Shown: in pieces, positions 4,411 to 40,334 of the stretch | How the letters are laid out: each line of letters starts with the position of its first letter | Position numbering within the stretch: position 1 is the stretch's first letter | Origin: Eunapius fragilis | Lineage: Eukaryota > Porifera > Demospongiae > Spongillida > Spongillidae | Length of the DNA: 64,000 nucleotides | Reading direction: 5' to 3' | Assembly: GCA_963681505.1 (NCBI GenBank) | Contig: OY811985.1 | Span: forward strand, 2,404,713 to 2,468,712 | Made by a program: the position numbers and the translations under genes | Notes under the pieces: generated by a model | What the model was told of the DNA's origin: nothing | The model's input: the letters and a program-made list of their open reading frames with translations, nothing else | Databases searched by the model: none

Positions 4411-4431
4411 CCACTCCCTCTCTTCTTTTCT
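4411..4431 (-). promoter_or_regulatory. Polypurine tract of Gypsy element B
   Basis: Read on the minus strand, the bases just before the 3' LTR are almost pure purine (AGAAAAGAAGAGAGGGAGTGG with one T). This is the expected primer for plus-strand DNA synthesis in LTR elements. Confidence 0.75.
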
Positions 4432-4441
4432 GAGTGTGTCC

Positions 4442-7400
4442 TCACACCCCAATACTGTCATCCACAGGAATGCTGTCTGGTATGCTCACTCGCTCCCCAT
4501 ACCATGCTGGGGGTCGTGTATTCCGTGTTGAGCGTCTGAGTGGTGCAGGAACAGGCCTCTCTTCCAGAGGGGCAAGTGCCCCTGGTGGTGGTACTTCCTT
4601 TGGTGCCGGTTCTGTTTCCCTGTGTGGGTCTGCCGGTGCCGTCGTTGGCATATCCAGAGGTGTGGCTTGTATGTCCTCATTTTCTGGATAAGTGAATACC
4701 ATGTCCTCAGCATCATCATCATCCTTGTTTGACTCCACAGGGGTAGATTCCTTAGGTATGGTTTCATCTGGTAGCAGGTCATCACACTGGTCTAAGCTGC
4801 CTGGTGCAGGCTTCAGTCGATTAAAGTGAACCACTTGTTTCCTCCTGGGATTGCTGCAATCCACAATCCTATAAACAGATGGGCTAATAACCTTGGTAAC
4901 TCTGAAAGGCCCTTGCCAAGGTCTTATGAACTTCCTTGAGCATCCCCTTGGGACCACTGAGCTATGAAGAAACACAAGATCATCTACCTGGTATGGGTGA
5001 CCCTTGATTGTTTTGTCATACACCTCCTTCTGGTGATTCTGTTTTCTTTTGGCCTTCTCCTGGACCAGCTGGTAAGCTCTCTTCATCCTCCCCACCAATG
5101 TCTGGCTGTAGCGCTCAGGTGACTCACATGTTTCAGGTGGGATACCATACATGATATCTTCTGGAAGGCGTGGATCCCGCCCAAACATTAAACTGAAGGG
5201 TGTCATACCTGTTGTTTCATGGACACTGGTACGATAAGCCAAAAGAAGAGATGGCAATAGTAGGTCCCATTTGTCTTCATCCTGCTGAACAGCCTTACTC
5301 AGCATTTCCAGCACCGTCTTATTAAATCTCTCAACCAATCCATCTGACTGTGGGTGGTATGGGGTTGTTCGTGTCTTCCGCACACCAAGTAGTTGACATA
5401 TTTCTTTTATCAAGGCAGACTCAAAGTTCCTTCCTTGGTCTGTGTGGAGAGACTCCGGCACACCAAATCGACACACAAAGTCGTTAACAAACACCCGAGC
5501 AACCGAGCTAGCTTCCATATTCTTCAATGGGTAGGCTTCCTTCCATTTAGTAAAGTAATCACCCACCACTAAAATATACTTATTCCCACGTGGAGTCTCT
5601 GGTAAGGGCCCCAGAATATCCATAGCTACCCGCTCCAGTGGTCTATCTACCTTGCTGACCTCCAAAGGTGCCCTCCTCTTAGGTGGTGACTTGCGTGAAT
5701 TACACACTAAACACTTACTACACCATTGCTCCACATCACGTCGCTGCCCTGGCCAGTAGAACCGATGTTGAACTTTCTCCAGTGTCTTTCTTGTTCCCAG
5801 GTGTCCTCCAATAATGGAGTCATGCAGTCCGTACAGGATGTCAGGTATCCAGACTGATGGAAGTACCAGCTGAAGACGTCTATCTGCCCCCCCTCCTGGA
5901 ATGTCTTCCCATTGGCGATATAAAATGCCATCTGTCAACACCAAGTTCTTTCGTTGGGTCCACAGAGACTGGAGTTTCCAACTGGCACTAGGTGGACACC
6001 TGTCTAGAAAAGTATTATTCTGCAAACAGTCAATTACTGTTTTCAAATCATTATCTTCCCCTTGGTGCTGCTTAATCTCATCCCTGGACCACACGGGTAG
6101 GATGATCTCAGTTGACGCTACTCCTACAGACCCCATTACTGAATCCTCTCCCTCACTCAACTGTGTCCCACACTGCCCACACATGCTGCGTGACAGAGCG
6201 TCTGCATTACTGTGCAGTTTACCTGGACGATGGATGACTTTATAGTTAAACTCAGCAAGTGCTTCCAGCCACCTGGCCACTTGTCCTTCTGGCTCTTTAA
6301 AACTAAGAAGCCACTTTAAGCAGTTGTGATCCGTCCGGATTTGAAACTCTTTCCCATAGAGGTATGGCCTGAAGTGATGGACAGCCCACACCAAAGCCAG
6401 CATCTCTCGTCGGGTGGCACAATACTTCCGCTCATTCTTTGACAAGACCCTACTTGCATAGGCCAAAACATGCTCACAACCACCAACTACTTGTGAAAGT
6501 ACAGCTCCCAACCCTTCCCCACTTGCATCTGTATCAACCACAAACTGTAAATGAAAGTTTGGAAATGACAAAATAGGTGCAGATGACAACTGCTTCTTTA
6601 ATTCAAAGAAGGCCTCGCTACACTCCTGGGTCCATATCCATTCCCTCCCCTTGTGTGTGAGGGCATGGAGAGGGGCAGCTACTAGAGCAAAACCCTTGAT
6701 GAAGCGTCGGTAATATGAGGCTAAACCCAGAAAGCATTGTAGCTGCTTCTGACTCGTAGGCACAGGCCAGTTTGCAATACATTTCACCTTCTCAGGATCA
6801 GTTGAAATTCCCTGGTCTGATATCACATGCCCCAGATAGGACACCCGACTCTGCAGCAGGTGGCATTTGGTTGGGTTAACCTTTAAACCAGCACCCCTCA
6901 AACGAGCTAAAACATCCCTCAACTGCTGGAAATGCTCATGGACAGTATGACTAAATACAATTATGTCATCCAAATATACCAGACAGGATGTCCAATGAAG
7001 CCCTGCTAAAACGCGTTCCATTAATCTTTGGAACGTGGCTGGGGCATTGCACATCCCGAAGGGCATAACCTTAAACTGGTAGAGGCCATATGGGGTTATA
7101 AACGCAGTTTTTTCCTTGTCCCCAGGGTTAACTGCCACCTGCCAGTAGCCACTAGCTAAATCTATTGTTGAAAAATAGCGAGCACCCCCCAGGGCATCCA
7201 AAGTATCATCGATTCTAGGTAGAGGCTGGGCATCCTTACGGGTGCAGTCATTCACCTTCCGAAAATCTACACAAAACCGGGTAGACCCATCTTTTTTCCT
7301 GACTAGCACAATGGGTGATGCCCAGGGACTATGGCTAGGTTCAATAACCCCACGTGACAGCATATCATCCAGTAACTCACGAACCTCCTGCTTCTGGTGA

Positions 7401-9256
7401 ACTGGTAGTCGTCTGGCTTGCTGACGTACTGGCCGACTGCTCCCTGTGTCAATCGAATGGTACACTAGGCTGGTGTGGCCCAAACTGTTCTCCCCCACTG
7501 CAATTACATCCTTGAATTCCAGCAATAGTGATGCTGCAGCATCCCTTTCCTTTTCAGACAGTTTGTCAGCACCACGTAGCATGAGGTGGACCACATCTTC
7601 CACTCCAACGTTTGCTGTGATGTTTACAGGCTCCTGTATCACACTGCACACAGTATGGCTGATGGGCCTTGCAACCGCCACCTTCTCACCCTTGTGGACC
7701 ATCACTGTTTCTGCTGAAGGATTAAGAACTTGAATTACTGCCTGTGAGGAACTTGCCTGAGACAAGGAATGTGCCACAATAAGGCAGTGTTGTTCCATGA
7801 AACCATTAAGTGGCTCCAAAAGGACATCTGTCTGGTGTGTCAGCTGACTCGTCTGCACATCTATTGTTACTGGAAGACGTATCTGGCAATAGGGTGGTAT
7901 CTCATTGTTCTCTGCCATGGACACAAAGCAGACAGCATTATCAACATGCTCTCTTGTACACATGTGCACCTGTTGCCCACCCGCATACAACACCTTTTGC
8001 TGCATGTCCAGAACACAGCCATGTTGAGACAAAAAATCAGCTCCAAGAAGGCACTCCTGAGTAAGGCTCGTGGCTATTAACACCATGTGTACAGCTGACA
8101 AGCCCCCAACTTTAATCACTAATGCACATTGCCCAACTAATCCCAGTTTTTCACCATTCGCTGTTACCACTGCTCGTACTGGTGCTTCCAAACTGTACCC
8201 CCTGTTCTTTACTTTTAATTTCTTCCATACTTCCTCCCTTATCAGTGTAACCGCTGACCCCGTGTCCAACAGCAGTTTGGTGCTGCGTCCTGCAACAGAA
8301 CCTATCACCATCAACGTTGAGCTTACCGCTGCCACACTGTCCTTCCCCTTCCCAGTCCTCCGGCGATGAGGGCAGTTCCGCTTTAAGTGTCCACGTTGAC
8401 CACATGACCAGCAGGTACTGTTACACACCCTTTTTTCCGTAGTGGTGTACTCCTTCCTGGGCCTCGTGGCTGCTAGTCCTCCAGGCGTCTTCAATAGCTC
8501 TAGCTGTTCCTGTAATTGTCGTATTGCAGCCTCCGAATCCTGAAGTTGCCTATTCAGCTCCTTGATAGTGGGAAGTGTGCTCTTGACAGGTTCCAGAGCA
8601 GATACAGTAGCTTCCATCTCCCCCTCCAGACGTCCGACAGCCAAGGACTCGTGCACACTCCTTTCTTTGTGCAACCTTTTCTGCGCAGATTCTACAGTTT
8701 CCTGTTGCGTGGCTAGCTGTAGCGCCTCAGCAAGCGTCGCCGGCATTTCGCGCATTAACTTCAACTGGACAGTGGGAGAGCGAACGCCTTGGATAAAATG
8801 ATTTCTCACCATTTCCTGCCGCTGCTCCGTGGACCATTGAGGATACGCCTTATCGGCTAGCTCAGTCAGTACTCCGACAAATTCGCCCAATTTTTCGTCA
8901 GTCCTCTGTGTACGCTGCTGCAACTTAAACTGCCACTCGAGCTCGTTCCCGTCGGGGTGGTATTGGTCCTTCAGACAGCGAACAACTGCTTCGTAGTCTG
9001 TGGAGACAGCCAACCCTTGTTGTGAAACAATACGGAAAGGAGCGTCCTCCAGTAGTGAAACAAGCTCGCACGTCCACTGGTCTTCGGGTATCTTTACCTG
9101 GCGAACGTATAGCTCAAACCGCATTAGCCAAAGTGGAAGGTCCGTCTTCTCTGAGAACCGTGGAGGTGGGCGCCGACTCATCCTTACTACCTGCTGTTCT
9201 CTTACGACGGCCGGTGTTTCCGCGTTTTCCGTGGTCGCGGACTCTTCGGCGCTCAT
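4442..9256 (-). CDS. Gag-Pol polyprotein of Gypsy element B
   Basis: A single 1604-residue frame with no break. Gag occupies about residues 1-275. A CCHC zinc knuckle (CWSCGQRGHLKRNC) lies near 279-295. The aspartic protease has LLLDTGSAVTLI near 328. The reverse transcriptase has CVDFRKVN near 660 and YLDDIIVFS near 760. RNase H has VVDTDASGEGLGAVLS near 905. The integrase has an H-H-C-C finger near 1150-1182 and Asp, Asp and Glu in MDILGPL (about 1210), HTDQGRNF (about 1270) and LVERFNKT (about 1306). A GPF-type C-terminal module lies near 1448. No chromodomain was seen. Gag and pol are fused without a frameshift signal. The ATG at 9256 begins right after the primer-binding site. Confidence 0.95.
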   Translation of the reverse strand: MSAEESATTENAETPAVVREQQVVRMSRRPPPRFSEKTDLPLWLMRFELYVRQVKIPEDQWTCELVSLLEDAPFRIVSQQGLAVSTDYEAVVRCLKDQYHPDGNELEWQFKLQQRTQRTDEKLGEFVGVLTELADKAYPQWSTEQRQEMVRNHFIQGVRSPTVQLKLMREMPATLAEALQLATQQETVESAQKRLHKERSVHESLAVGRLEGEMEATVSALEPVKSTLPTIKELNRQLQDSEAAIRQLQEQLELLKTPGGLAATRPRKEYTTTEKRVCNSTCWSCGQRGHLKRNCPHRRRTGKGKDSVAAVSSTLMVIGSVAGRSTKLLLDTGSAVTLIREEVWKKLKVKNRGYSLEAPVRAVVTANGEKLGLVGQCALVIKVGGLSAVHMVLIATSLTQECLLGADFLSQHGCVLDMQQKVLYAGGQQVHMCTREHVDNAVCFVSMAENNEIPPYCQIRLPVTIDVQTSQLTHQTDVLLEPLNGFMEQHCLIVAHSLSQASSSQAVIQVLNPSAETVMVHKGEKVAVARPISHTVCSVIQEPVNITANVGVEDVVHLMLRGADKLSEKERDAAASLLLEFKDVIAVGENSLGHTSLVYHSIDTGSSRPVRQQARRLPVHQKQEVRELLDDMLSRGVIEPSHSPWASPIVLVRKKDGSTRFCVDFRKVNDCTRKDAQPLPRIDDTLDALGGARYFSTIDLASGYWQVAVNPGDKEKTAFITPYGLYQFKVMPFGMCNAPATFQRLMERVLAGLHWTSCLVYLDDIIVFSHTVHEHFQQLRDVLARLRGAGLKVNPTKCHLLQSRVSYLGHVISDQGISTDPEKVKCIANWPVPTSQKQLQCFLGLASYYRRFIKGFALVAAPLHALTHKGREWIWTQECSEAFFELKKQLSSAPILSFPNFHLQFVVDTDASGEGLGAVLSQVVGGCEHVLAYASRVLSKNERKYCATRREMLALVWAVHHFRPYLYGKEFQIRTDHNCLKWLLSFKEPEGQVARWLEALAEFNYKVIHRPGKLHSNADALSRSMCGQCGTQLSEGEDSVMGSVGVASTEIILPVWSRDEIKQHQGEDNDLKTVIDCLQNNTFLDRCPPSASWKLQSLWTQRKNLVLTDGILYRQWEDIPGGGADRRLQLVLPSVWIPDILYGLHDSIIGGHLGTRKTLEKVQHRFYWPGQRRDVEQWCSKCLVCNSRKSPPKRRAPLEVSKVDRPLERVAMDILGPLPETPRGNKYILVVGDYFTKWKEAYPLKNMEASSVARVFVNDFVCRFGVPESLHTDQGRNFESALIKEICQLLGVRKTRTTPYHPQSDGLVERFNKTVLEMLSKAVQQDEDKWDLLLPSLLLAYRTSVHETTGMTPFSLMFGRDPRLPEDIMYGIPPETCESPERYSQTLVGRMKRAYQLVQEKAKRKQNHQKEVYDKTIKGHPYQVDDLVFLHSSVVPRGCSRKFIRPWQGPFRVTKVISPSVYRIVDCSNPRRKQVVHFNRLKPAPGSLDQCDDLLPDETIPKESTPVESNKDDDDAEDMVFTYPENEDIQATPLDMPTTAPADPHRETEPAPKEVPPPGALAPLEERPVPAPLRRSTRNTRPPAWYGERVSIPDSIPVDDSIGV

Positions 9257-9257
9257 G

Positions 9258-9275
9258 ATCCCACTCCTGACACCA
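9258..9275 (-). promoter_or_regulatory. Primer-binding site, tRNA-Leu type
   Basis: One base inside the 5' LTR the minus strand reads TGGTGTCAGGAGTGGGAT, which matches the complement of the 3' end of eukaryotic tRNA-Leu as I recall it. It directly precedes the gag start codon. Confidence 0.75.
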
Positions 9276-9276
9276 A

Positions 9277-9409
9277 TGTAACAGACTTGGCGGTAGCAGC
9301 ATACAAAAGATCATTGAAGGTAACAAATCATGCACATATATAGGACACAACACGCATGCGCACACGATCAAGGTTCAAGGTTCATATTAGTCATACAATG
9401 GGTGCTACA
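9277..9409 (-). repeat. 5' LTR of Gypsy element B
   Basis: 133-bp direct copy of 4278-4410. In the element's orientation this is the upstream LTR and should hold its promoter. No TATA motif was singled out. Confidence 0.95.
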
Positions 9410-10650: not shown

Positions 10651-11298
10651 AAAATTTTGGCACCACAGTTTTTAGGGCCACTGGGGAGCAATTGCCCCCA
10701 CCCCCACTGCCTCTTCTCCCTGGATCTTCAGCTTACTGATCACTTTTAAATGGCAAAGATTGCTATGACCTTGCTGGCTGATCGAATTGTTGTATCTCAG
10801 CAATGTTATAAGCGAATAGATTATTAATGAGTTTGGGCAACCTATGCAGGAAAACCACTATAGCCTCTAAGTGGAGAATTGTCAGCATATCATGTGGTTA
10901 TAGATTGATTATCCCCAGGGGCCTTCTCGTCTCCATTTTGATATCCCTTGCAAATCACAACTACATTAAGTTTATTGTCACATATGCTTTAGCATGCCTA
11001 TTTTACTTTTCTTGCATTCGTAACATGCAGAAAAATGTATTTAGTTGTTTGTGGCTGTAATCCATGAATTGGAAAGAAAGCCCTTTTTTCTTGCAGTAGT
11101 AGATTAAATTTCCACCTTTGGCCTTCGTCGTTAGCTCTATGTATTGTATTGTATGCAACTCTCTGTTTTACAATATTAGGATACACATATCTTATGGTTT
11201 TGAAATTTAAAATTTGTACACAAAAATTAGCAATTACAATCTTGTATGTTGCATTTATTTACTGGTATAATGATTTTATCTTTTTATTCTACTGTTAG
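10651..11298. other. Upstream region of the megasynthase; no gene seen
   Basis: AT-rich DNA between the dead Gypsy copy and the NRPS-PKS frame. No coding similarity was recognised. Its right end, just before 11299, is a pyrimidine-rich tract ending in TACTGTTAG, which looks like a 3' splice site. An untranslated first exon and the promoter may therefore lie in this stretch or further left. Confidence 0.5.
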
Positions 11299-11308
11299 GG
11301 ATAGTATC

Positions 11309-12205
11309 ATGACAAATTTCACATGTTGCATTATTGGACGGTCCCAACTAGCCATGGACTGTTCCAAGCTGCTGGTAAAGAAGGGAATTGCAATCAAACA
11401 CATATTTACTGATGATCTCACCTTCAGAGACTGGTCTGAGGGTTTAAGCATTCACGTTGATGAAATAGACAACCTGTTACCTCTTTTTGAACCAAGCAAG
11501 GCATCCTTTTTTGATCAATTTGACTATCTTTTTAGTATAGTGAATGACATAATAATACCGCTCTCTGTTCTAAAAGCTGTTCGCAAATTTTCAATCAACT
11601 ATCACAATGGACCACTTACAAAATACAGAGGTACAAATGTGACACACTGGGCTCTGATTAATGGAGAGACGACGCATGGAGTAGTATGGCATGAAATAAA
11701 TGAAAAAGTGGATTCTGGAAACGTTTTTGTTGGCAAGGATATAACCATTGAGATTGATGAAGACCTATTGGCAGTAAATTGGAAATGTAGTGAAGCTGCC
11801 AAGCTGTCCTTTGCTGAGCTGTGTGACAAAATTTTGACATTTTCACTGACAGGCTGCAATCCGACAGGCTGCAATCCGTTGCAGCCTGTTGGAAAACTGT
11901 ATAAAATGAATGAAAAACCGTCTGCATTTTGCTTGCTGCCATTCAGCCGTCCTGCACAGCAAGTTTATAATTTCTTTCGGGGTACATCTGATCTAATGTC
12001 GTCTTCCATGAGTAGTAAACAGACGCATTCTCTTTCAACTCAACCAAATGAACTTGGGTTACCAAAAGTTTTCTTCGGTAGCTTAGGCAAGCTCTTTGTT
12101 GTCACTGGGATGAATATTTTAAAAGAGGCACTTATGCCACACTCGGTTCCTGGCACACTGGTTTCTATCGCTGACCATTTGAGAGTTTCCACTGAAGACT
12201 ATGAT
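11309..12205 (+). other. Megasynthase: N-terminal formyltransferase
   Basis: The core INYHNGPLTKYRGTNVTHW resembles methionyl-tRNA formyltransferase-like domains at the head of some NRPSs, where they formylate the first carrier-bound amino acid using formyl-tetrahydrofolate. The catalytic triad Asn-His-Asp can be placed at Asn118, His120 and Asp156 (KVDSGN). A region resembling the formyltransferase C-terminal subdomain follows (PGTLVSIADHLRVS, about residues 300-315). An insertion with a short tandem repeat (TGCNPTGCNP) sits near residue 205. Confidence 0.85.
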
Positions 12206-15200
12206 GTAATGATTACTGGCTTAAAGGAATTAGATGGCTCTGATGTTCCAAAGCCATTCAAGCAGACTTTACCACTGAAGGTAGGAGCAATGGTGGAAAT
12301 CGAGCAGGCCCACTCCCCTGGCTCTCTACTGTGGAAGCTAAGTGAGTATGCATTGGCAGGTAGGCACGAAAGGAAGTGGGTTGCATCTTTTGTTTATCCC
12401 GGATTGTATGCACCAGGAGTAAAGTCAAAACATGTACCTGTACTAATGTGGCCATACCAACCTCAGAATGTTGTAGCTTCAGCAGATGCAATTTCCAACA
12501 CTGTTAGTAAACAGTTTTTGTGCAGTGTTGGTATGAGTATGTTTTCATCGTTGGCATTGCATTACGAACCTGAGATCCTTTTGCTTGCTTCATTCTTGTG
12601 CTACCTTATTCTGTTAACCCCATCTATGTCTGGGGGTTTTGACGTAAAGCTTAGAGGAATCCCTGATGAACCAATATATATGCAATCCATTATTAGCTGT
12701 CTTCCTACCGCTTTCTGCCTCAATCGCAATGATTCACAACCATATACTTTTTTGAAGGCTATCAAAGAGTTGAGTACCCTTCTATACTCAATTATCAATG
12801 GAGAAATGAAGTCAAATGTTCGCACTAAGACTGTGGCATCTGATATTTTTATAAGATATTCAGTGAAGCCGGTATACAATCAGATTGTAGTATCAGTCAT
12901 TGATGATGGAAAAGATTTTGATATGCCTTATAACAATAAAGTGGCCATTCTTTGCTGCCGGGAGGTGGAAGCAGTTAGTATATACCTTGCAATTCATTCC
13001 AGTATTCAAGCTGTGACTATAAAAGAGGACTTTCTCGCTTTCTTGCATGATGCACTCCATTGCCCAGATGAACAGCCCATTTCCTGTTTTAGACTATGTA
13101 GTGAAAATACTACCAATTTTCTGGCGCATCACAAAACTCTGAAAGGACCAGATTGTACTGACTTCCCGAGATGGTTTCACAAACCATTTGAAGTCATTGC
13201 ACAAGAGCTTCCATTTGGAATTGCTGTGGTAGATGAAGTAGGGCAGTATACATACCGGGAATTGGATAGAAAAGCGGAGGATATTGCAAGTGTCATTCTT
13301 AGTAGAGCACAGGGTAAAATTATAACCAATGTGGCTCTTCTTTTGAACAGAACATGGCTTTCGATAGCTGCCTCACTGGCAGCCATGAAATTGGGAATTA
13401 CTTTCATACCAATTGAACCAGACTCACCCAGTGGATTCATATCTGCAATACTTGAAGATTCTAAGACTTACTTGTTGATAGTGGATGATGAGTGCAAAAC
13501 GTTTGGTATAAAATGTGTTCAAAAATTAGAGATAATTAGCTTAAAATTTATTCCAAATGCCTCAAAGCAGCTTCAGCAACAGCACTTGGAGTTCCCAGAG
13601 AATGCAGCAGTTCTGCTATACACGTCAGGGACTACTGGTAAGCCAAAAGGTATTTTAATTGAACATCAGGGTCTATGCAATGTAATCAGCTGCGTGATTT
13701 CAAGGATGCAAATCAAGAAGCATCGAGTTGAAGACGAACATGTGGATTACTCTGTGTATGATGCTTCCCCAACCTTTGATACCTGTTTCCTACAATTATT
13801 TCCAATCCTTTGGAATGGAGGAACTGTTTTCATTGCTCCAACCAATCCATTAATGAAGAACAGATGCTCTAAGTTCTTCAAGCATGTCACATTTCTTTCT
13901 ACTACACCACGTAAGCTGTCTCTGTACAGTTCTGATGTGTTTGAATGTGCCATTAATGTGGCTGTTGGAGGTGAGGACCCTAGCATTGAGCTGTACAAAA
14001 GATGGAAAAAGCCTGATAGAAAGCTGTGGAATATGTATGGCCCTGCTGAGATTTCTGTCATTACCACAATGGGTAGCATTCAAGACCAAGTTCACCTTGG
14101 CCAGGCTGTAGACAACTCTATTCTCAAAATTTGCAATGCATTACAAGTCCCAGTGCCTGTTGGCGTTCCGGGAGAATTATATGTGTTTGGTTGTGGTGTT
14201 GCACGAGGTTACACGTCAGATATAGCAACTGAGGGGTTATTTGGGAAAGACCCTGAAACAAATATGCGGTGGTATCGCACTGGTGACCTTGTTTTACTGA
14301 ACAGCAATGGCCTCTTGCGATACATCGGTAGGATTCCTTTGGATTCACAAGTCAAGATTGGTGGAATGAGGGTTGAACTTCTTGGGATTGAATATGCCAT
14401 CAAACAGTTTCCATGTGTTGAGTATGTCAAAATGAGCGTCGAGAAGCCTGCCAAAAATGTCACCCTTCTGGTAGCTTACATTGCACCTGAAACAATAGAT
14501 ACCTTGCAAATTGGTATTAGGTTGAAAAATTTGTTTCCTGAGCATATGCTACCTTCTTATATTATTCCTATTAAACTAAGTGATGCAAAACTTACTAGGA
14601 CTGGCAAAATTGAACTTGACCTGTCAAAATATATTAACAGGTTTTCACCATGCTCCGTACCTCCGCAATCTGGGTTAGAGAAAGATTTGCTTTCTGTGTA
14701 CCAGGAATGTCTTGGTATCACACACCACAGTACAATGGGTATGAGTGATTCTGTTAAAATGTATGGTGGGGATTCTGTGATTGCTGTATCTATATCAGAT
14801 GAAATACATCGTAAACTTATGTGGAATGTTAGTCCTTTGGATATCTTGAAATATACACCAAGTGAGATTATAAAGAAATACAGTCATGTGGCAAACCCTG
14901 TGAGCATTTATTCAACCAAACAACATTGTAGTATAGATAAAAATTCTACCTTGGGCCCTCTGTTCACACACGAGCGAAATAGCATCAAACTTGTCTCACA
15001 GCATAAGCATTCTGATAACCAATCTGGGTTACAGCATGGACAAAAAGGCATTTTTGAGTTTTCTAGCATGCAACAGTCGCTTCTACTGTTGAATACTGTT
15101 CAGGCAGGCCCTGCATACAATATTCCCCTTGTTTTTGAAATATCTGGCTCTATTAAATTGCAGCGCTTTGTATTCAGTGTTCAAAAAGCCCTGCACTTTT

Positions 15201-18200
15201 TCACTTCTCCAGTTCAGTTAAGTTTTCCAACTGCATCAGTGATTCATGAAGTAGATCTCAGCAACCTACCTTGCGGCGCCAGAACTAGTGCTCTGCATAT
15301 GATTCAGAGAGATGCCTGCACTCCTATAGACCTGAAGACTTTACCATTTCGATGCACCATTTACTACAGTTATCAACACTGCATTTTCAGCTTAATAGTG
15401 CATCACATGTATTTTGACTATCACTCCTGGAGCATTCTGCAACTAGTAATTCAAGAATTGTACAGCTCAGACTCTACCGAATCTAGTACCTATCAGGATT
15501 CAATGCAGAATTACATAAAATCAGAGAAAAGCGAATATGCAGCAAACAAAAGGAAAATTGATGAATTTTGGTATAGATGTGTTCATGGTTTTCCGTGTTT
15601 TATCCCATTCCCTACATCATTTCACCGCACTTCCATCAAATACTACAGAGGAAAAAGGCAAGTAAACAGCTTTAATAGGGGACTTTACCGACGCTGCCAT
15701 AACTTCTGTTCTACATTTGGAGTGCATCCTATGACGTTGTTCCTATCCATATTTGCACTCATGATCCAGCAGTTGTCAGGTGTAGATAGGTTTTGCATTG
15801 CAGTTGTGTGTAGTCGTCGTACAACACCAGAACTCAAAAGAGTAGTTGGTTTTGTTGCTAGCACTTTGGTTTGCAGCTTTTCTAGTGGCACATTAAGTGG
15901 TTCATTTTCTGAGCTACTGCAGTACACAGAATCTTGGTATGAGGAAGCAGTAAGGAATGGATGTATACCATTTGAAAAACTACTCAATATATGGGGATAC
16001 AACACTTCCCAGTCTAACCACCACTTTCCTCAGTTCATTCTTAATTTCATATCTGACTTTCACACACCCACTATCCTTCTTGGTGATGGGATAATCGTTG
16101 ACCCAATAAATATTGATACCTTCACTGCTAAGGCAGAACTGTTGCTTGACGTTTGGTTTTCAGAGGATGACTTTTCCAATGCATGGGAGTATGATTCTCA
16201 TCTATTCACTAAAGAAGCAATTGATATGTGTGTGGGCAAGTTGTACATAGAACTACTAAATTATTTCCTTGCTCATTATTATTCTAAAATGTGTGATTTT
16301 CAGCAAAGTACATCAAGTTGTATTTCAGAACTACTGAGAATAAACGTCAGTAATTTCCTTTTATCAAATAAATTTCAGGACAGTCATGAATTGGCATACT
16401 CCCTTTCAAAACATCAACAAGTGATAGTTAAGGCTATCAAATCCATGCCAGATGCTTACTGGGGTTACTTTAATGGCACCTGTAGCCAAAAAGTCAAGCT
16501 TGGAATAACAAAAACTGATGTTGAGATTGCAATTGACTCTGTGGTGAAAGCTAACCCATATCTAAGCTCTGTATTGTCAATAAATCATGACAGCCTGCAA
16601 TATAAACAGTTCAGTTTTGACATTGGTTTCGACACTGTACTAGATAATAGTGAAGCTGAAAAGATCAGATGTCGTGAATACATGTGGCCATTTGATATTT
16701 TCAAGGGACCACTATTTCATTGCACATTGGTTCATCACATAAGTGATGGCAGCAAGGAAATCTTAATAGCTTCAAATCAGATTTTGCTTGATGAAGAGGC
16801 ACTGAGGCTTTTCTGTGGTTTGGTTTGTGATACCCTAGAGCTGAGTGTCATCAAATCCTTTCCTACATTCATTTCCATCCCTGCCATGGATGATAGAGAG
16901 GCCGAAGATTACTTCAGACAGACCCTCAATACTACACTCCCTCTGTTGACACCACCACCCACTGCATTGCCATCACTTGCATCACCTTCCATGGTTACAG
17001 AGAAGTTTCTTGATGTCTCCCGTGTTGTTCCACAAGGTAGTGTACCTGCTTTCTGCTGTGTGGTCTCTGCACTTATGCTTTGGATTTTAAAAAGGAGCAC
17101 CCAAATACAGCTTTGTTTCCTTCATTCCCGCCATGAAGCAAACCAGTGCTTCTGTGCCTGTGAAGACATTACACCTCTTAGTATCACATTAAAGGACAAC
17201 ATATCCTTTCATGATCTTATGCAAGAATGTGTTAATACCCTAACTGAAAGGGAGAGTGTTCGTTTGAACTACTGGATGGTTCAAACGAGATTTGATCCAT
17301 ATTCTGATTATTTAAAACCACACCATGAAATGCTGGTGCAAGTTGTCAGCTGTGGTCGTCCATGTGTGTTGAACTATACAAGGCCTTTTAGGTTGCATTT
17401 GTGTTTTAAAACCGACACGAAAATGGTGATGTTGACATCAGCCTTAAATGCTGAGCAATCACCCATTGTGCATGAAGTGTTCCAGAAGCTTGTAAGGGCC
17501 ATCCAAGCCATTGAAAGTTTGAGTACTCCCATACACACATTGCTGCAAAGTGTGACGTTTTCCCCTTCCTTGGTGCATGGAAACCAGTTTAACCTAACCA
17601 ACAAGTGCATACAGCAAATGATAATTCAGGCTATTGCCATGAAAGCAGATACTATATATTGCTACTCTTATGCTGATACTTCAAAAGCAACCTCAATGAA
17701 TGCTATGACCTACAGAGAGCTGGGGCACCAGAGTAATTTACTTGCCACAACTCTTTCTTCAATTATTGATAAATACAAACAATGCAGTAGGCATATTGCT
17801 TTATTAATGCAAGGGGAATTTGAACTTCCTGTTGCTGTTATTGCTGCAGTTTTAGCACACCTAACCTTCATTATTTTGGATCCTGCTGAACAAAAAAGTG
17901 CTATATTGGAGAAAATGAAAATAGTTAATCCAGCAATAATGTTATATGATCTTGCTCATCTGGAGTTGGCAAAGACTCTCTTGTACTCTACGTTCACTGT
18001 CATACCTGTTCTAGTCGATGTATTTGGTGAGCATCATTGTAGTTATATCAGAGAAGAAATAGTTAGTTTACAGGTGCCAATAGTATCCCCATCTTTGCCA
18101 GATGAGGTTGCTTATGTTGTATTTACATCTGGCTCAACAGGGCAACCAAAAGCAGCACCCATTCCAGTTGTTTCATTCTGCAACTTTTTGGAATGGCACA

Positions 18201-21200
18201 AGTCAATGATACCGTATAATGGCCCACTAAACTGGCTACAATGTAGCAGCTTATCATTTGATATTTGTATTGCTGAATTTCTTGGGCAGTTGTTCTGTGG
18301 CAATACACTGTTCCTTAGTAACAATAATCGAAAAATGGACCTTGAAAATTATTTTCTAAAAATATTGAAACTATTTAACATTGAAGGCATGCATGTTGTA
18401 CCAACCTTTCTTTCATATATGCTTCGAACAATGTCATTGTCAAAAATTCACTTGAATTCTTTAAGACATGTGTTTTCTACAGGAGAAAAATTGAGTAGAG
18501 ATGTTTGCACTCAATTTTTCAGATTGTTTGAAAATGCTTTGTTGCATAACTGGGGAGGCGCCTCCGAATGCACAATTGAAATGATGCATTGTGTTTTGAG
18601 CTATGAGCAGTGCATATCAGATGTTCCAGTTGGAACCCTAGTGCCCAATTCAGAAATAGCAGTTGTAAACCCATCATCACTAGCCTGTGTTCCAAAGCTA
18701 ATCCCCGGTGAGATCCTTGTAACAGGAACCGTTGTATTCAATAGATATTTGAACTACCCAACAGAGAAGGTCCTCATTCAAAAAGATGGAAAAACTTGGT
18801 ACAGAACTGAGGACATTGGATATATTAATAGTAAAAATCAGATTGTACTGTTGTATCGTATCGGAAGCCTTAGAAAAGTAGCAGGACAAAGTATTGATCT
18901 GCAAGGAGTGAAGTGTTTAATCAACCAGCTGAACATTTCAGAAGTCCAGGATATAATAGTTGACATTGTGGAAGAACTTAATCCAGGACTACCATCCTTG
19001 ATCTGTTTTCCTATTGTATCATCTCTAGCTAAAGGACTTGAACAAACAATACAAGCTACACTAGTAGAAAAACTACCAAAGAGATGTGTTCCTCGTGTTA
19101 TAAAATGTCTAGAAGAGCATAACGTGCCTCTCCTTAGCTCAGGTAAGGTGAACTATAAAGTCCTTAGGGAAATAGCAGTTGAAACAAAAGGTCACATTGG
19201 TAGTGAAAGTTCTGAAGTTTCATCCCAGTTCAGCAAAATTTTGCTAGATCAATTGGCTGGTTTTATTCCTCATTTAAAACCACGTGACTTACCCATGAGG
19301 TTCATGACTCTTAGTCATCTAGGATTAACTTCTATGCACATCGTCAGCTTGGTAGATAAACTAAGAGAGTGTGGATTGAGGATTCATGTAAGTATGTTAC
19401 TAATGCCATACACTCTTGCAGAGATCATCAACATAATTGAAAAATGTAATTCTAATCAACCACCATTCCAGTGCCTGCCTAAATCACAGGCTATACCAGT
19501 ATATTCTGAGGTGCCCATTGCCATACTTACAGTACAAGTTAATCTGCCAGGTGCAACATCATGCAATGAGTTTTGGGATGTTATTCACAACTGCGTGGAT
19601 ACTATTACACACAATCTACCTCAATCAGAGTCTGTGTTAGCTGTTGATGAGCAGGCTCAGTATGTTGGCTCACGAGGTCTAATTAAGGACAGGGATGCCT
19701 TTGATGCAGAACTATTTGGTATTCCAAAGGCCCATGCTGAAATGCTGGATCCTCAGCAGAGAATTTTAATCCAGATGGTGTGGACAGCATTGGAGGAAAT
19801 TGGCTGTGCCCCAACCAGACTCACTGAAGGCCAAAGGATTGGTTGCTTTGCTGGTGTTCAATTTCCATCCTATTTATTGAACTGTTTAAGTGCAGCTAGG
19901 TCAATGCGTGAGCAAGACGCTGCTGTGTGGAACAATTGCAGGGATAATGTATCGTTGCTGATTGGTCAGATATTGGATTTTCGAGGGCCCTGTGTAACTG
20001 TTGCAAACAACTGTGCAACATTTGCTGTTGCACTCCACTATGCTCGTTGCAGTTTGATGTTAGGTGAGTGTGATATTGCTGTAGTAGCTGCAGGCACCAT
20101 TGCATCGGATGAAACAGGGTACTGGTCACAAAAGAATGACATCTACTCCTGTGATGGCCAGTGCAGACCATTCTCAGAAACAGCTACTGGCACTGTCATG
20201 TCTGACGGTTTGGTAGTCATTGTGCTTAAACGCCTACCTGATGCAGAAAGAGAACATGATGATATTTTGTGTCTGATCAGGGGAAGTGCTGTGGGGGCAG
20301 ATGGAGCACTGGCTGGAGTTAGACGGTATGTTCCTTCTGCAAATGGCCAGATAGAAACATTAAGAAGAGTTTTTCACACTTCAGGTGTTGAACCCAGTTC
20401 TATTTCACTGGTGGAGGCTCATGGTACTGGTACTAAGGTTGGAGATCATATTGAACTAGAAAGTCTGACAGAAGTATTCAGTAATCATTTTTCTTTGAAT
20501 AAGAAGTGTATCTTGGGATCTGTGAAAGGTAACATTGGCCACACAGGTGTTGCATCTGCTGGTCCTTCTGTTGCTAAAGCTGCTTTAGCTCTGAAGCATG
20601 CTGTGCTGCCTCCAAGCATCCATTGTAATAACCCAGTGCCACAATTAATGGAAAGTCAGATTTTTGAGGTAATTTCAAGTCCAAAGCCATGGCGATCAAC
20701 TCCGCACCATAATCGGATGGCCCTTGTTCATTCTATTGGTGCACTAGGGACCAACTGTGCAGTTATTCTCGAAGAATACATTGGTAGACCTGTAAGTCCA
20801 TGTGCTACTTGTCATTTTGAGGAGCCATGCTATCCTGTCTGCATCTCTGCAACATCTGAGTGGTCATTGGAACAACTGTGCAGCAAAATAAAAAAATACC
20901 TTTCAGAAATGGAATTCCCAAATTCATTGTTCATGCTAAGGGACATTTCATATACTCTTGCTGTTGGCAGGAAGAATCTATCTATAAGAACTGCAACAGT
21001 GATTGATTCATTGAGTGAGTTTGATAAATGGTTGTCCTTTGCACCACAAGAGAAAAGGTCCTGTGTGATAAATCCAGTTGTTATTGTGTTTTCTGGTTTT
21101 GGACAGTGCCTGGACTTTTCCTCAATCAAAATATATTATGAAATATGTCCATCACTTAAAGATGATGTTTTGACATGCTTTCATATTCTTCAGACTGCTT

Positions 21201-23548
21201 TTCCAGAGAATGATGCAGAAATAAACACCCTTAAATCAGGTGCTGCATACTTGATAGAACCCAGCAACGAACCATTGCAACATGTTCTAAACGTGATATA
21301 TCAAGTTGCAATGTACAATTCTTTGAAATTACTTGGGGTGAAAGTGTCATGCATTATGGGGCATAGCCTAGGAGAATATGCTGCTGCGTATGCCTGTGGA
21401 GCTTTGTCACTTGAGGATGTGCTGAAAATTGTATTCAAAAGAGCTCTCTTAGTTGAAAAAGTGGAGCATGATGGAAAGATGCTGAGGGTTAACCAGGGAG
21501 GGAAAAAGCTGCAAGCTAACCTGCAAAAGTATCTCAATCCAAGCCATGATGTAGCAGTTGCTTGCTTTAACTCTCCAGAACATTGTGTAGTATCAGGGTC
21601 TTCAGATGATCTGCACAAATTACAACATCTATTGGTTTCTGACGGCATTAAGTGTGAATGGCTTAATAATAAGCATGCTTTCCACCATTCAAATTTAAAA
21701 CAAATTGAACACGAATTTAGAAATTGCTTCCAAAATGTGACAGCAAAAAAACTAGGAACAACATGGTTGACAAGTATTGATGGGCTTTGCAGGGTTAACC
21801 CACCTGGAACAATCATTGCAGTAGACTACTGGCTAAAGCATTTGACTTCAGCAGTGAACTTCTCTGAGGCATGCAATTATTTAAGTGAACATCTCAATAA
21901 AAAAATGGATAGTGCCTGCTCTCCTATTATTATTGAAGTTGGAATGCAGTCTGTAATGAAAATTTTGTTATTATCAAACAAAGTACAGTTTCACGATGTA
22001 TTCTCATTTTCTCTGAAGATGTCACATGCTCATCTACTATCACATCTCACTAACATCTGGAAATATGGGATTGATATTGAATTTAATAAAATGCCATTAT
22101 ATTTTGAAGCAAATCGTCTCAGATTGCCAACATATCCTTTTCATTTGCAAAAATATTGGGTTTCTAGTCAGAATCAATATTGTGCTCAAGGGCAGAACAG
22201 TGTTTGTAATGTTGACCCCTTACCAATATCTAATATCAGAACTATTTCGTCAGTACTTGAATTCATCAAAACCCTTACTGGTGACCATTTTCAGGATAGC
22301 TTTCCTGAAGATTCAGCATTTCTTTTAATGTTAATGGAAAGTTTACGGAGAAAATATAAAGCTAATGTTTCTCAGCTGCTTATAGAAAAGAAATCACCTT
22401 TGCAAATAGCGGAGTATATTTGCTCAATGAATCCTGTTGCTCAAGTACATATTGACTGTATGCATCTACTCACTCCAAAGGATGATACAAAACCTAAAAT
22501 ATTTATCATGCATGCAGTTGGAGGCAAGCTATACTCATTTATTCCTCTAGCCACTAGCATGTCTGCCAATTTTCAGGTATATGGTGTGTATGCTTCTGTT
22601 ACACTGCTGAACTATGACTCTACAGAGGAATATGCTGCCTTCTATTTAAGTGAAATCCGGAAAGTTCAAAATAGGGGTCCTTATTATATAGGAGGCTTTT
22701 CATTTGGAGCTTGGTTGGCTCATGCTGTAGCTAAAATCCTGGTCACAGAAAAGGAGCAAGTAAAACTGTTTATGATAGACCCAATTCCTCTTCAAGCAGT
22801 TGATTATATAGTCTTGAAACAACACCCTGAATTCGTACATTCACTGGTTTCATATGGAGATGCTTTTGTTATTCATGCTCTGCAGACATCTTCAGCTCCC
22901 AGTATGTTGCTAAATTTTGCAAGGAACTTCTACAAGCAGTATGAGTTGCTACTACAGTACAAAATGTCTTGTACACCTGTTTGTTGCAGCACAGTAATTT
23001 TACTAGCAGAAAAGGGGATATCACTTCAGCATGACATGTTGCTCCTTAATCCTGAAAAGTGGTCTAATACTGTAATGCTAACTGATGTTCAGGTTGTCAA
23101 GATTCCTGGAACTCATGCCACCTGCATTGCCTCTACCTACTGCTGCCACATTGCAAGTACTATTCTCAAGAGTTCAGGGCTTTGTTACAAGGAAATGGCT
23201 ATTCCTGTTTGTTCTGACCATGAAATCCAGGGAATATGGAAAGTGCACATTATTGAAAGCAATGGAATACTTTCTTGTTTTAGGCCCAACCAGTTTAAGG
23301 TGGTGAGAAATAACTATGTTTTTATATTACCAGATTGCGTGAAAACCACAAATCAAATGTTACTTACCTTATTGAATTCATCTGGCTCTTTTGAAATTCA
23401 AACAGGAAAATGTACTTTCAAAATTGAAATGTCATTTGTAAATCCCGATCTATGCCCATGTGAAATAACTGGAGAAATATCAACTATGGGTTGTACTACT
23501 TTAAGGATGTCCATTGATAAACATGTCTTCATATTAATGAACATTTAG
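11309..23548 (+). CDS. Hybrid formyltransferase-NRPS-PKS megasynthase
   Basis: One frame without an intron encodes about 4,079 residues from the ATG at 11309. An in-frame ATG at 11246 exists, but a likely 3' splice site lies at 11298, and the formyltransferase homology starts at the second ATG. Numbering below is from 11246. Order: formyltransferase (22-320), condensation-like piece (430-570), A1 (650-1125), carrier (Ser1177), C1 (HH1386-1387, Asp1391), degenerate C2, degenerate A2 (2110-2645), carrier (Ser2696), KS (Cys2923, His3059, His3099), AT (Ser3374), carrier (Ser3690), TE (Ser3819, Asp3845, His3957), and a tail of about 110 residues. No KR, DH, ER or methyltransferase was seen. It should make a small N-formylated aminoacyl-polyketide by an assembly line. 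The nearest neighbours are transposons, so there is no visible gene cluster. The lack of introns contrasts with the intron-rich genes to the right and fits lateral acquisition or retrocopying (inference). Confidence 0.93.
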   Translation: MTNFTCCIIGRSQLAMDCSKLLVKKGIAIKHIFTDDLTFRDWSEGLSIHVDEIDNLLPLFEPSKASFFDQFDYLFSIVNDIIIPLSVLKAVRKFSINYHNGPLTKYRGTNVTHWALINGETTHGVVWHEINEKVDSGNVFVGKDITIEIDEDLLAVNWKCSEAAKLSFAELCDKILTFSLTGCNPTGCNPLQPVGKLYKMNEKPSAFCLLPFSRPAQQVYNFFRGTSDLMSSSMSSKQTHSLSTQPNELGLPKVFFGSLGKLFVVTGMNILKEALMPHSVPGTLVSIADHLRVSTEDYDVMITGLKELDGSDVPKPFKQTLPLKVGAMVEIEQAHSPGSLLWKLSEYALAGRHERKWVASFVYPGLYAPGVKSKHVPVLMWPYQPQNVVASADAISNTVSKQFLCSVGMSMFSSLALHYEPEILLLASFLCYLILLTPSMSGGFDVKLRGIPDEPIYMQSIISCLPTAFCLNRNDSQPYTFLKAIKELSTLLYSIINGEMKSNVRTKTVASDIFIRYSVKPVYNQIVVSVIDDGKDFDMPYNNKVAILCCREVEAVSIYLAIHSSIQAVTIKEDFLAFLHDALHCPDEQPISCFRLCSENTTNFLAHHKTLKGPDCTDFPRWFHKPFEVIAQELPFGIAVVDEVGQYTYRELDRKAEDIASVILSRAQGKIITNVALLLNRTWLSIAASLAAMKLGITFIPIEPDSPSGFISAILEDSKTYLLIVDDECKTFGIKCVQKLEIISLKFIPNASKQLQQQHLEFPENAAVLLYTSGTTGKPKGILIEHQGLCNVISCVISRMQIKKHRVEDEHVDYSVYDASPTFDTCFLQLFPILWNGGTVFIAPTNPLMKNRCSKFFKHVTFLSTTPRKLSLYSSDVFECAINVAVGGEDPSIELYKRWKKPDRKLWNMYGPAEISVITTMGSIQDQVHLGQAVDNSILKICNALQVPVPVGVPGELYVFGCGVARGYTSDIATEGLFGKDPETNMRWYRTGDLVLLNSNGLLRYIGRIPLDSQVKIGGMRVELLGIEYAIKQFPCVEYVKMSVEKPAKNVTLLVAYIAPETIDTLQIGIRLKNLFPEHMLPSYIIPIKLSDAKLTRTGKIELDLSKYINRFSPCSVPPQSGLEKDLLSVYQECLGITHHSTMGMSDSVKMYGGDSVIAVSISDEIHRKLMWNVSPLDILKYTPSEIIKKYSHVANPVSIYSTKQHCSIDKNSTLGPLFTHERNSIKLVSQHKHSDNQSGLQHGQKGIFEFSSMQQSLLLLNTVQAGPAYNIPLVFEISGSIKLQRFVFSVQKALHFFTSPVQLSFPTASVIHEVDLSNLPCGARTSALHMIQRDACTPIDLKTLPFRCTIYYSYQHCIFSLIVHHMYFDYHSWSILQLVIQELYSSDSTESSTYQDSMQNYIKSEKSEYAANKRKIDEFWYRCVHGFPCFIPFPTSFHRTSIKYYRGKRQVNSFNRGLYRRCHNFCSTFGVHPMTLFLSIFALMIQQLSGVDRFCIAVVCSRRTTPELKRVVGFVASTLVCSFSSGTLSGSFSELLQYTESWYEEAVRNGCIPFEKLLNIWGYNTSQSNHHFPQFILNFISDFHTPTILLGDGIIVDPINIDTFTAKAELLLDVWFSEDDFSNAWEYDSHLFTKEAIDMCVGKLYIELLNYFLAHYYSKMCDFQQSTSSCISELLRINVSNFLLSNKFQDSHELAYSLSKHQQVIVKAIKSMPDAYWGYFNGTCSQKVKLGITKTDVEIAIDSVVKANPYLSSVLSINHDSLQYKQFSFDIGFDTVLDNSEAEKIRCREYMWPFDIFKGPLFHCTLVHHISDGSKEILIASNQILLDEEALRLFCGLVCDTLELSVIKSFPTFISIPAMDDREAEDYFRQTLNTTLPLLTPPPTALPSLASPSMVTEKFLDVSRVVPQGSVPAFCCVVSALMLWILKRSTQIQLCFLHSRHEANQCFCACEDITPLSITLKDNISFHDLMQECVNTLTERESVRLNYWMVQTRFDPYSDYLKPHHEMLVQVVSCGRPCVLNYTRPFRLHLCFKTDTKMVMLTSALNAEQSPIVHEVFQKLVRAIQAIESLSTPIHTLLQSVTFSPSLVHGNQFNLTNKCIQQMIIQAIAMKADTIYCYSYADTSKATSMNAMTYRELGHQSNLLATTLSSIIDKYKQCSRHIALLMQGEFELPVAVIAAVLAHLTFIILDPAEQKSAILEKMKIVNPAIMLYDLAHLELAKTLLYSTFTVIPVLVDVFGEHHCSYIREEIVSLQVPIVSPSLPDEVAYVVFTSGSTGQPKAAPIPVVSFCNFLEWHKSMIPYNGPLNWLQCSSLSFDICIAEFLGQLFCGNTLFLSNNNRKMDLENYFLKILKLFNIEGMHVVPTFLSYMLRTMSLSKIHLNSLRHVFSTGEKLSRDVCTQFFRLFENALLHNWGGASECTIEMMHCVLSYEQCISDVPVGTLVPNSEIAVVNPSSLACVPKLIPGEILVTGTVVFNRYLNYPTEKVLIQKDGKTWYRTEDIGYINSKNQIVLLYRIGSLRKVAGQSIDLQGVKCLINQLNISEVQDIIVDIVEELNPGLPSLICFPIVSSLAKGLEQTIQATLVEKLPKRCVPRVIKCLEEHNVPLLSSGKVNYKVLREIAVETKGHIGSESSEVSSQFSKILLDQLAGFIPHLKPRDLPMRFMTLSHLGLTSMHIVSLVDKLRECGLRIHVSMLLMPYTLAEIINIIEKCNSNQPPFQCLPKSQAIPVYSEVPIAILTVQVNLPGATSCNEFWDVIHNCVDTITHNLPQSESVLAVDEQAQYVGSRGLIKDRDAFDAELFGIPKAHAEMLDPQQRILIQMVWTALEEIGCAPTRLTEGQRIGCFAGVQFPSYLLNCLSAARSMREQDAAVWNNCRDNVSLLIGQILDFRGPCVTVANNCATFAVALHYARCSLMLGECDIAVVAAGTIASDETGYWSQKNDIYSCDGQCRPFSETATGTVMSDGLVVIVLKRLPDAEREHDDILCLIRGSAVGADGALAGVRRYVPSANGQIETLRRVFHTSGVEPSSISLVEAHGTGTKVGDHIELESLTEVFSNHFSLNKKCILGSVKGNIGHTGVASAGPSVAKAALALKHAVLPPSIHCNNPVPQLMESQIFEVISSPKPWRSTPHHNRMALVHSIGALGTNCAVILEEYIGRPVSPCATCHFEEPCYPVCISATSEWSLEQLCSKIKKYLSEMEFPNSLFMLRDISYTLAVGRKNLSIRTATVIDSLSEFDKWLSFAPQEKRSCVINPVVIVFSGFGQCLDFSSIKIYYEICPSLKDDVLTCFHILQTAFPENDAEINTLKSGAAYLIEPSNEPLQHVLNVIYQVAMYNSLKLLGVKVSCIMGHSLGEYAAAYACGALSLEDVLKIVFKRALLVEKVEHDGKMLRVNQGGKKLQANLQKYLNPSHDVAVACFNSPEHCVVSGSSDDLHKLQHLLVSDGIKCEWLNNKHAFHHSNLKQIEHEFRNCFQNVTAKKLGTTWLTSIDGLCRVNPPGTIIAVDYWLKHLTSAVNFSEACNYLSEHLNKKMDSACSPIIIEVGMQSVMKILLLSNKVQFHDVFSFSLKMSHAHLLSHLTNIWKYGIDIEFNKMPLYFEANRLRLPTYPFHLQKYWVSSQNQYCAQGQNSVCNVDPLPISNIRTISSVLEFIKTLTGDHFQDSFPEDSAFLLMLMESLRRKYKANVSQLLIEKKSPLQIAEYICSMNPVAQVHIDCMHLLTPKDDTKPKIFIMHAVGGKLYSFIPLATSMSANFQVYGVYASVTLLNYDSTEEYAAFYLSEIRKVQNRGPYYIGGFSFGAWLAHAVAKILVTEKEQVKLFMIDPIPLQAVDYIVLKQHPEFVHSLVSYGDAFVIHALQTSSAPSMLLNFARNFYKQYELLLQYKMSCTPVCCSTVILLAEKGISLQHDMLLLNPEKWSNTVMLTDVQVVKIPGTHATCIASTYCCHIASTILKSSGLCYKEMAIPVCSDHEIQGIWKVHIIESNGILSCFRPNQFKVVRNNYVFILPDCVKTTNQMLLTLLNSSGSFEIQTGKCTFKIEMSFVNPDLCPCEITGEISTMGCTTLRMSIDKHVFILMNI
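12206..13185 (+). other. Megasynthase: linker with condensation-like piece
   Basis: About 325 residues between the formyltransferase and A1. The part around residues 440-480 (EILLLASFLCYLILL...GGFDVKLRG) and the following text resemble the C-terminal half of condensation domains. No HHxxxD motif is present, so it is probably structural. I cannot assign it firmly. Confidence 0.4.
13193..14881 (+). other. Megasynthase: adenylation domain 1 and carrier 1
   Basis: The A-domain core motifs are intact: A3 LLYTSGTTGKPKG (about 790), A5 MYGPAE (about 930), A7 YRTGDL (about 1009), A8 KIGGMRVEL (about 1040), and A10 with lysine in RTGKIEL (about 1118). The carrier has GGDS with Ser1177 as the phosphopantetheine site. 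This should be the loading module that selects the amino acid to be formylated. The specificity pocket was not decoded. Confidence 0.88.
15068..16315 (+). other. Megasynthase: condensation domain 1
   Basis: The second His and the Asp of the active-site motif HHxxxDG are kept in HHMYFDYHSW (His1386, His1387, Asp1391), with Gly replaced by Tyr. Text further on (GVHPMTLFLSIFALMIQQLSG...VVGFVASTLV) follows the usual C-domain order. It is likely to catalyse amide bond formation, if the second module is charged. Confidence 0.75.
16328..17560 (+). other. Megasynthase: degenerate condensation domain 2
   Basis: A second C-domain fold follows directly. Where HHxxxD is expected it reads NQILLD (Asn1844, Gln1845, Asp1849), so the general-base His is gone. 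The C-terminal half is also divergent. This domain is probably inactive or purely structural. Confidence 0.6.
17573..19450 (+). other. Megasynthase: divergent adenylation domain 2 and carrier 2
   Basis: A3 is clear (FTSGSTGQPKA, about residue 2292). A5 reads NWGGASE instead of N-x-YGPTE. A7 reads YRTED with Gly lost. The A8 hinge (IGSLRKVAGQSIDL) lacks the usual G-x-R-I-E-L. The A10 lysine is kept in SSGKVNYK (about 2632). Loss of the A7/A8 features suggests weak or no adenylation. The carrier keeps LGLTS with Ser2696. Confidence 0.75.
19493..20800 (+). other. Megasynthase: ketosynthase
   Basis: The catalytic Cys2923 sits in ANNCATF (normally TACSSS). His3059 is in EAHGTGT and His3099 in KGNIGHTG. 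The dimer-side motif LDPQQRILIQ is present. The complete Cys-His-His triad supports decarboxylative condensation. The unusual active-site flanks (NNCATF, and GTVMSDG where G-x-G-x-G is common) make it divergent. From its motifs it looks more like the KS of bacterial NRPS-PKS hybrids than animal fatty acid synthase; this should be tested by phylogeny. Confidence 0.9.
21038..22165 (+). other. Megasynthase: acyltransferase
   Basis: The nucleophile elbow GHSLGEYAAA contains Ser3374. The specificity motif HAFH (His3477-His3480) is the one associated with malonyl-CoA selection in cis-AT polyketide synthases. The C-terminal linker RLPTYPFHLQKYW is typical of AT exits. The N-terminal part (FSGFGQCLDF) has lost the usual GQG-x-Q spacing. 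Confidence 0.88.
22208..23545 (+). other. Megasynthase: carrier 3, thioesterase and unknown C-terminal tail
   Basis: The last carrier is worn but keeps Asp-Ser (PEDSAF, Ser3690). The type I thioesterase has GGFSFGAW (Ser3819), MIDPIP (Asp3845) and PGTHAT (His3957), a full Ser-Asp-His triad, so release by hydrolysis or cyclisation is likely. After the TE come about 110 residues (EIQGIWKVHIIESNG... onward) with alternating hydrophobic strands. They are unlike any NRPS domain I know and could be a small beta-barrel. Confidence 0.8.

Positions 23549-40303: not shown

Positions 40304-40334
<31 letters not shown>

Follow-up and report, generated by a model that had tools for sequence, protein, structure and literature searches.

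A giant FT-NRPS-PKS gene resident in a sponge nuclear genome, duplicated as a whole and likely of bacterial ancestry

A giant enzyme gene of bacterial style lying in a sponge assembly raises the question of whether it belongs to the animal or to one of its symbionts, and of what its protein might make. The gene lies in a stretch of 64,000 nucleotides (C15:2404713-2468712, hereafter the window) that contains no N and is part of a 7.18-Mb contig, in a genome of 218,937,333 bases in 24 contigs. A sequence-only reading of the window had described an open frame of about 4,080 codons, and we found a single frame on the plus strand, at 11309-23548, with 4,079 codons plus the stop codon, no internal stop and no intron. 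A whole-genome search with each half of the protein led to one further full-length copy, on another contig (C3:2062487-2074576, minus strand). This copy is also intronless and has the same domain order; it counts 4,029 codons from stop to stop and 4,013 from the equivalent ATG, and the two copies are identical at 1,657 of 4,079 positions (41%). Neither this paralogue nor the further NRPS gene described below figures in the sequence-only reading. An in-frame ATG at 11246 would lengthen the window frame at its 5' end, but the start of the paralogue (MEFTCC) aligns with 11309.

Matches to Pfam and NCBIfam, completed by comparing both copies and their bacterial relatives, gave the order FT_N-FT_C-half C-A1-T1-C1-C*-A2-T2-KS-AT-T3-TE for the whole protein, which ends in some 110 further residues without an assigned domain (Table 1). 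The domains named by the sequence-only reading were all recovered, but it had overlooked the half C between FT and A1 and the piece after TE. The Pfam matches comprised Formyl_trans_N, AMP-binding (two stretches), Condensation (one), the N and C parts of ketoacyl-synt, Acyl_transf_1 and Thioesterase, with a weak match to PP-binding (22.8 bits, cut-off 20.8). Since a single protein joins A, T and C domains to KS and AT, the gene encodes an NRPS-PKS hybrid; it also has the architecture of an FT-initiated NRPS, as the N-terminal FT stands in cis with A-T (PF00551, kept triad, collinearity with bacterial proteins). None of the reducing and dehydrating domains DH, ER and KR was among the 11 Pfam families matched at E <= 0.001, and in this respect the protein departs from an animal type I FAS or FAS-like PKS.

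Table 1. Positions of the giant gene's domains and of neighbouring features, numbered from the first base of the window.
Feature	Position	Strand	Basis or remark
Host LTR element	4301..9409	-	Terminal matches of 110 nt, 4301-4410 and 9300-9409
Putative 3' splice site of 5'-UTR intron (TTTTTATTC..TAG)	11281..11298	+	10 nt before ATG
Formyltransferase, FT_N + FT_C-like, residues 1-326	11309..12286	+	PF00551, best stretch residues 82-163
Probable half C (C-terminal part of a condensation domain), residues 336-613	12314..13147	+	Collinearity with Legionella alone
Adenylation A1, residues 620-1110	13166..14638	+	PF00501, TIGR01733, nearest solved structure LgrA
Carrier T1 (GGDS)	14666..14878	+	PF00550, weak
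Condensation C1 (HHMYFDY)	15047..16288	+	PF00668
Degenerate condensation-like C*, edges approximate	16376..17668	+	Custom C profile, E ~7e-5
Adenylation A2	17681..19183	+	Second PF00501/TIGR01733 stretch
Carrier T2 (GLTS)	19226..19438	+	Motif only
Ketosynthase KS	19502..20773	+	PF00109, PF02801
KS-AT linker + acyltransferase AT (GHSLGE; HAFH)	20837..22183	+	PF00698, PF22621
Carrier T3 (PEDS)	22256..22438	+	Motif only
Thioesterase TE (GFSFG)	22448..23188	+	PF00975
C-terminal piece, ~110 aa after TE, common to both copies	23213..23545	+	

We then looked at the catalytic residues in alignments of both copies, under the usual motif names. With the exception of C*, neither copy has lost the residues of C, KS, AT and TE or the carrier serines (for T2 and T3 the identification is by motif alone). 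The claim that FT, A1, C1, KS, AT and TE retain their key residues thus holds for the paralogue as well as for the window copy, with an unusual context in KS. FT, 49% identical in the C3 copy and collinear with a Legionella protein (see below), keeps N97-x-H99 and D135 in both copies; the C1 active site reads HHMYFDY in one and HHIIFDY in the other; KS, 58% identical, keeps both His and has its Cys in the context ANNCATF. At the AT site the window copy reads HAFH, presumably of malonyl type, and the C3 copy YAYH. The specificity codes of the A domains, read by eye, match no code that we know of.

Three domains deviate from this picture or were harder to place. The half C was located by collinearity: positions 194-451 of PF00668 match the Legionella protein at this point, and the corresponding stretch of the sponge protein, between FT and A1, is probably its counterpart, with no direct Pfam or PDB match of its own, no match for its profile in the PDB and no profile-profile match to C1. 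The second condensation domain had been called degenerate, with good reason: C* matches a custom C profile weakly in both copies (E ~7e-5, the profile being built from five sequences, among them the C1 domain of either copy) and the catalytic HH is replaced in both. It gave no Pfam match and no match in a profile search of the PDB, and a profile-profile comparison with C1 aligned 50 columns of the active-site region at a probability of 15.7%. The second adenylation domain had been considered dead, which the alignments do not bear out: A2 keeps its P-loop (TSGSTG), the Asp of A7 and the Lys of A10, and is 48% identical between copies against 50% for A1, although its A8 motif is degenerate and off consensus. 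Structures predicted from two-row alignments were too poor for use (mean pLDDT of 32.7 for C* and 34.4 for TE plus the C-terminal piece).

An intronless frame with a bacterial domain order, found in an animal in whose kind many bacteria live, could be a symbiont gene stitched into the assembly by contamination or a mis-join, and a run of 5,000 N (C3:2053349-2058348, between simple repeats) does lie 4.1 kb past the 3' end of the C3 copy. Against this, the two copies are diverged and sit on two contigs, with no N in the window, and their composition is host-like. Both have a CpG o/e of 0.27, TpG being at 1.42-1.45 and CpA at 1.39-1.42, while 50 synonymous-codon shuffles gave CpG values of 0.557±0.018 and 0.568±0.021 for the two copies. 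Low CpG together with raised TpG and CpA has the appearance of a methyl-cytosine decay signature. The sequence-only reading had proposed composition as a test against a symbiont; three bacterial FT-NRPS relatives have CpG o/e of 0.85, 1.19 and 1.27, the lowest value being that of the Legionella relative, whose GC content is nearly the same. Host sequences gave 0.31 (an LRR-Roc frame), 0.39 and 0.40 (the window flanks) and 0.47 (the LTR frame); CpG depletion is uneven in the host, with 0.82-0.93 in three cathepsin exons and 0.44 in an NRPS frame on C8. Arginine is encoded by AGA or AGG at 85 of 129 and 64 of 113 positions in the two copies, which also speaks against contamination.

Host repeats adjoin both copies. 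The LTR element of the window ends 1.9 kb upstream of the giant gene; it carries an unbroken frame (4442-9256) with RT, RNase H and integrase, and its terminal matches are 97% alike. Its sequence occurs on 14 contigs with at least 41 matches, itself included, of which 38 fall within the query's first 136 bases; the count is a lower bound, as 40 of the 53 candidates were scored. On other contigs some matches come in pairs spaced by about 5 kb, as additional full-length copies would. Another host repeat lies about 100 bp past the stop of the C3 copy, and the flanks of the two copies have only short dispersed repeats in common. A genome search with the 2 kb downstream of the window gene matched only itself. 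Elsewhere in the window, positions 34179-34329 are 79% like the sequence just after the C3 copy's stop, and a reverse-transcriptase frame of 349 codons lies at 33174-34223. With host-like composition, CpG depletion, adjoining host repeats and a megabase contig of chromosome scale, the gene is a resident nuclear gene, as the sequence-only reading had held, and contamination is very unlikely.

The host itself is very probably a demosponge, since silicateins are demosponge proteins and one is encoded in the same genome. Peptidase_C1 gave 84 matches, 30 of them given as loci, of which 19 were looked at by pattern or by eye; among these 19, most loci with a readable active site have the Cys of a cathepsin. 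The exon at C10:2295000, by contrast, reads QGQCGASYAF, with Ser in place of the active-site Cys. When this 39-residue piece was compared with the PDB, silicatein alpha (6zq3) came first (E 4.1e-13), a 'cathsilicatein' second and cathepsins next (best 60 of 106 matches). Groups of Peptidase_C1 exons lie at C10:2244000-2328000 and C5:7721000-7724000, and one on C5 is silicatein-like by eye.

The motif TTTTTATTC..TAG just before the start codon had been read as a likely 3' splice site. It is present, and in the C3 copy the same motif recurs 11 nt ahead of the start codon, which suggests a putative 5'-UTR intron upstream of the ATG. The motif is expected 0.13 times per window and occurred in 11 of 100 shuffles, figures to be read with the fact that it was selected after both copies had been seen. 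Intron-rich animal genes had also been announced further to the right; a scan of two of the six frames of 40001-55000 did not bring them out and found an LRR-Roc frame alone (ROCO-type, 50120-52492, 790 codons). Two frames of the window have no Pfam match (58200-60227 on the minus strand, 675 codons, about 54% GC; 27144-28553, 469 codons, 41-47% GC), and the end of the window (62853-64000), with three overlapping open frames and a strong GC skew, is probably a tandem repeat.

How old is the gene, and is it kept? Between the copies pS is saturated, at 0.715 overall and 0.67-0.76 across the parts of the protein, for a pN of 0.391. The pN/pS ratio is below 1 in all 13 parts, from 0.39 in KS to 0.71 in the C-terminal piece (0.55 overall), these ratios being loose because pS is saturated. 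Synonymous saturation with pN below pS in every part indicates an old duplication and a protein that has been kept. In a tree of the adenylation domains A1 grouped with A1 and A2 with A2, both with a support of 100 (the tree had 15 rows and several long branches, and 5 of its 12 inner branches are open), meaning that the duplication came after the whole protein had been assembled and took in the entire gene. The two copies account for all KS matches in the genome (two of two candidates), in a search that an exon-split KS could escape. One could still imagine a resident gene that is degenerating, whose frame survives while its second module (C* and A2) is dead and yields no product: the catalytic His of C* is lost in both copies, the A8 motif of A2 is off consensus, and the overall pN/pS of 0.55 would fit. 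We consider this quite unlikely, because some 4,000 codons have stayed open in both copies while synonymous divergence reached saturation, A2 is as conserved as A1, and the deviating motifs of A2 and KS are largely common to both copies.

Looking at possible ancestors, we found the closest architecture in bacterial FT-half C-A-T synthetases (Legionella lytica WP_252582488.1, Mycetohabitans rhizoxinica). From its N terminus onwards, the Legionella protein has by Pfam FT_N and FT_C, then the C-terminal half of Condensation, then A, T and TE; it is collinear with the sponge protein over FT_N, FT_C, half C, A and T (302 of 1,232 alignment columns identical), whereas it does not have the C-C*-A-KS-AT part and its CpG is not depleted. 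The bacterial linear gramicidin synthetase LgrA likewise begins with an FT on the same protein as A and T, and is nearest to A1 among PDB structures; its architecture is not known to include a PKS module or a half C. LgrA was among the FT matches, where the pair of sponge FT domains scored 58.1 bits with sugar formyltransferases, 47.1 with ArnA and 34.9 with LgrA. For KS, bacterial modular PKSs were nearest, and no chain named fatty acid synthase appeared among the best 60 of 146 PDB matches. No close bacterial donor was found, every plasmid match being below 60% identity: among the matches listed, identity did not exceed 30.3% for the first 1,333 residues (20 of 1,603 records), 30.8% for FT plus half C (25 of 199 records) and 32.9% for KS-AT (12 of 1,051, cyanobacteria). 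A scan of a genome collection with two peptide patterns returned 138 stretches and one weak KS-AT match, and with so few patterns and matches it says little about donors. The earlier suggestion of an acquisition from bacteria is supported for the loading module, whose domains run in the same order as those of the bacterial proteins. Bacterial ancestry by transfer is likely from these comparisons.

The lack of a close donor would also suit a wider animal lineage, in which the gene descends from an older animal NRPS-PKS family rather than from a separate acquisition by sponges. Suring et al. 2023 (PMC10531068) list NRPS in 13 phyla, Porifera not being listed in the part of the survey used here, and the PKSs of molluscs are poor in introns and in some cases carry C domains (PMC10764717, in part). 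This origin is nevertheless unlikely: the FT-half C-A-T start matches bacterial proteins, and 'formyl' has no occurrence in the main text of either the animal NRPS survey (PMC10531068) or the rotifer paper (PMC11258130). We rather think it probable that this is a demosponge nuclear gene for a one-protein NRPS-PKS, a descendant of the FT-initiated synthetases of bacteria that was taken up long ago and has since been duplicated as a whole.

Other NRPS-type genes were seen in the same genome. A further intronless NRPS frame of 1,766 codons from stop to stop (C8:9016994-9022294) has the order A-T-C, with an intact HHILIDG, followed by a stretch without assigned domain; its CpG o/e was given above. 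Five frames resembling A domains, each of 577-599 codons, are neighbours at C7:1622703-1636637; four of them were measured and have CpG o/e of 0.27-0.36 over their matched parts. Phosphopantetheinyl transferase (PF01648) gave no match in the genome (one candidate scored), in a search that a gene in short exons could escape.

From its motifs, a working of the protein can be proposed. A1, whose motifs are intact, would load an amino acid on T1, and FT would formylate the T1-bound amino group from formyl-tetrahydrofolate, given the kept N-x-H...D triad and the precedent of formylation by the FT of LgrA. C1 would join the formylated residue to a second amino acid on T2, for which A2, in spite of its degenerate A8, is probably the loader; C* would be non-catalytic. 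KS and AT may then add one malonate-type unit on T3, and TE would release an N-formyl dipeptidyl beta-keto product, that is, an N-formyl dipeptide plus one C2 unit. For the release step our guess is either hydrolysis or closure of a ring, which would give a tetramic-acid-like lactam. As A2 and C* are off consensus and the ANNCATF context of KS is unusual, the assembly line may not work as drawn.

Modular NRPS-PKS hybrids had been described as rare in animals, which needs qualifying: nematodes (nemamide) and bdelloid rotifers have published hybrids, in phyla other than this one (PMC10531068, PMC11258130), and molluscs have C-domain PKSs (PMC10764717), as far as the portions drawn on here go. 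The rotifer genes are ascribed to transfer in the cited part of that paper (PMC11258130). The animal type I KS enzymes of PMC10764717 are likewise encoded by animals; that survey saw no type I KS protein in sponges, and no FT is named in the sections cited. In those sections, Lin et al. 2024 (PMC10764717) report PKSs in all animal phyla investigated except sponges and ctenophores, after removal of contigs assigned to bacteria, fungi, plants or algae; removal by taxonomy could hide an intronless gene such as this one. In the main text of PMC10531068, 'sponge', 'Porifera' and 'Amphimedon' have no occurrence. The idea that sponges themselves encode such biosynthetic genes is already in print (PMC10542158, PMC12833800). 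According to the cited part of PMC10542158, antiSMASH found 1-10 clusters in each of three chromosome-level sponge assemblies, flagged as possible genuine transfers, and 1 NRPS and 5 NRPS-like clusters in the Geodia barretti draft; the authors leave contamination versus transfer undecided and urge study, and that part describes no single gene. The alkaloid gene bundle oro (PMC12833800) resembles our gene in placing specialised metabolism on sponge chromosomes; the part cited shows no NRPS-PKS of such kind in it, and states that its enzymes fall in animal clades and are not transferred. Our literature searches on NRPS and PKS in sponges and animals, whose scope was published descriptions, showed no described sponge FT-NRPS-PKS gene among the matches listed.

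A giant enzyme gene of bacterial style thus sits in an animal group for which PKSs had been reported missing, according to the cited sections of PMC10764717. Where a sponge genome is methylated, comparing CpG depletion with synonymous shuffles offers a simple test of transferred gene against symbiont contamination; the question of transfer or contamination that the cited part of PMC10542158 raises for chromosome-level sponge assemblies becomes directly testable in this way. Most sponge pathways characterised to date are bacterial, as stated in the cited part of PMC12833800. For this sponge we lean slightly towards the view that sponges themselves may run an ancient N-formylated peptide-polyketide line, a bacterial FT-NRPS-PKS that would have entered the demosponge germ line so long ago that synonymous sites have become saturated since its duplication, and that now persists in two diverged copies, alongside a further intronless NRPS gene.
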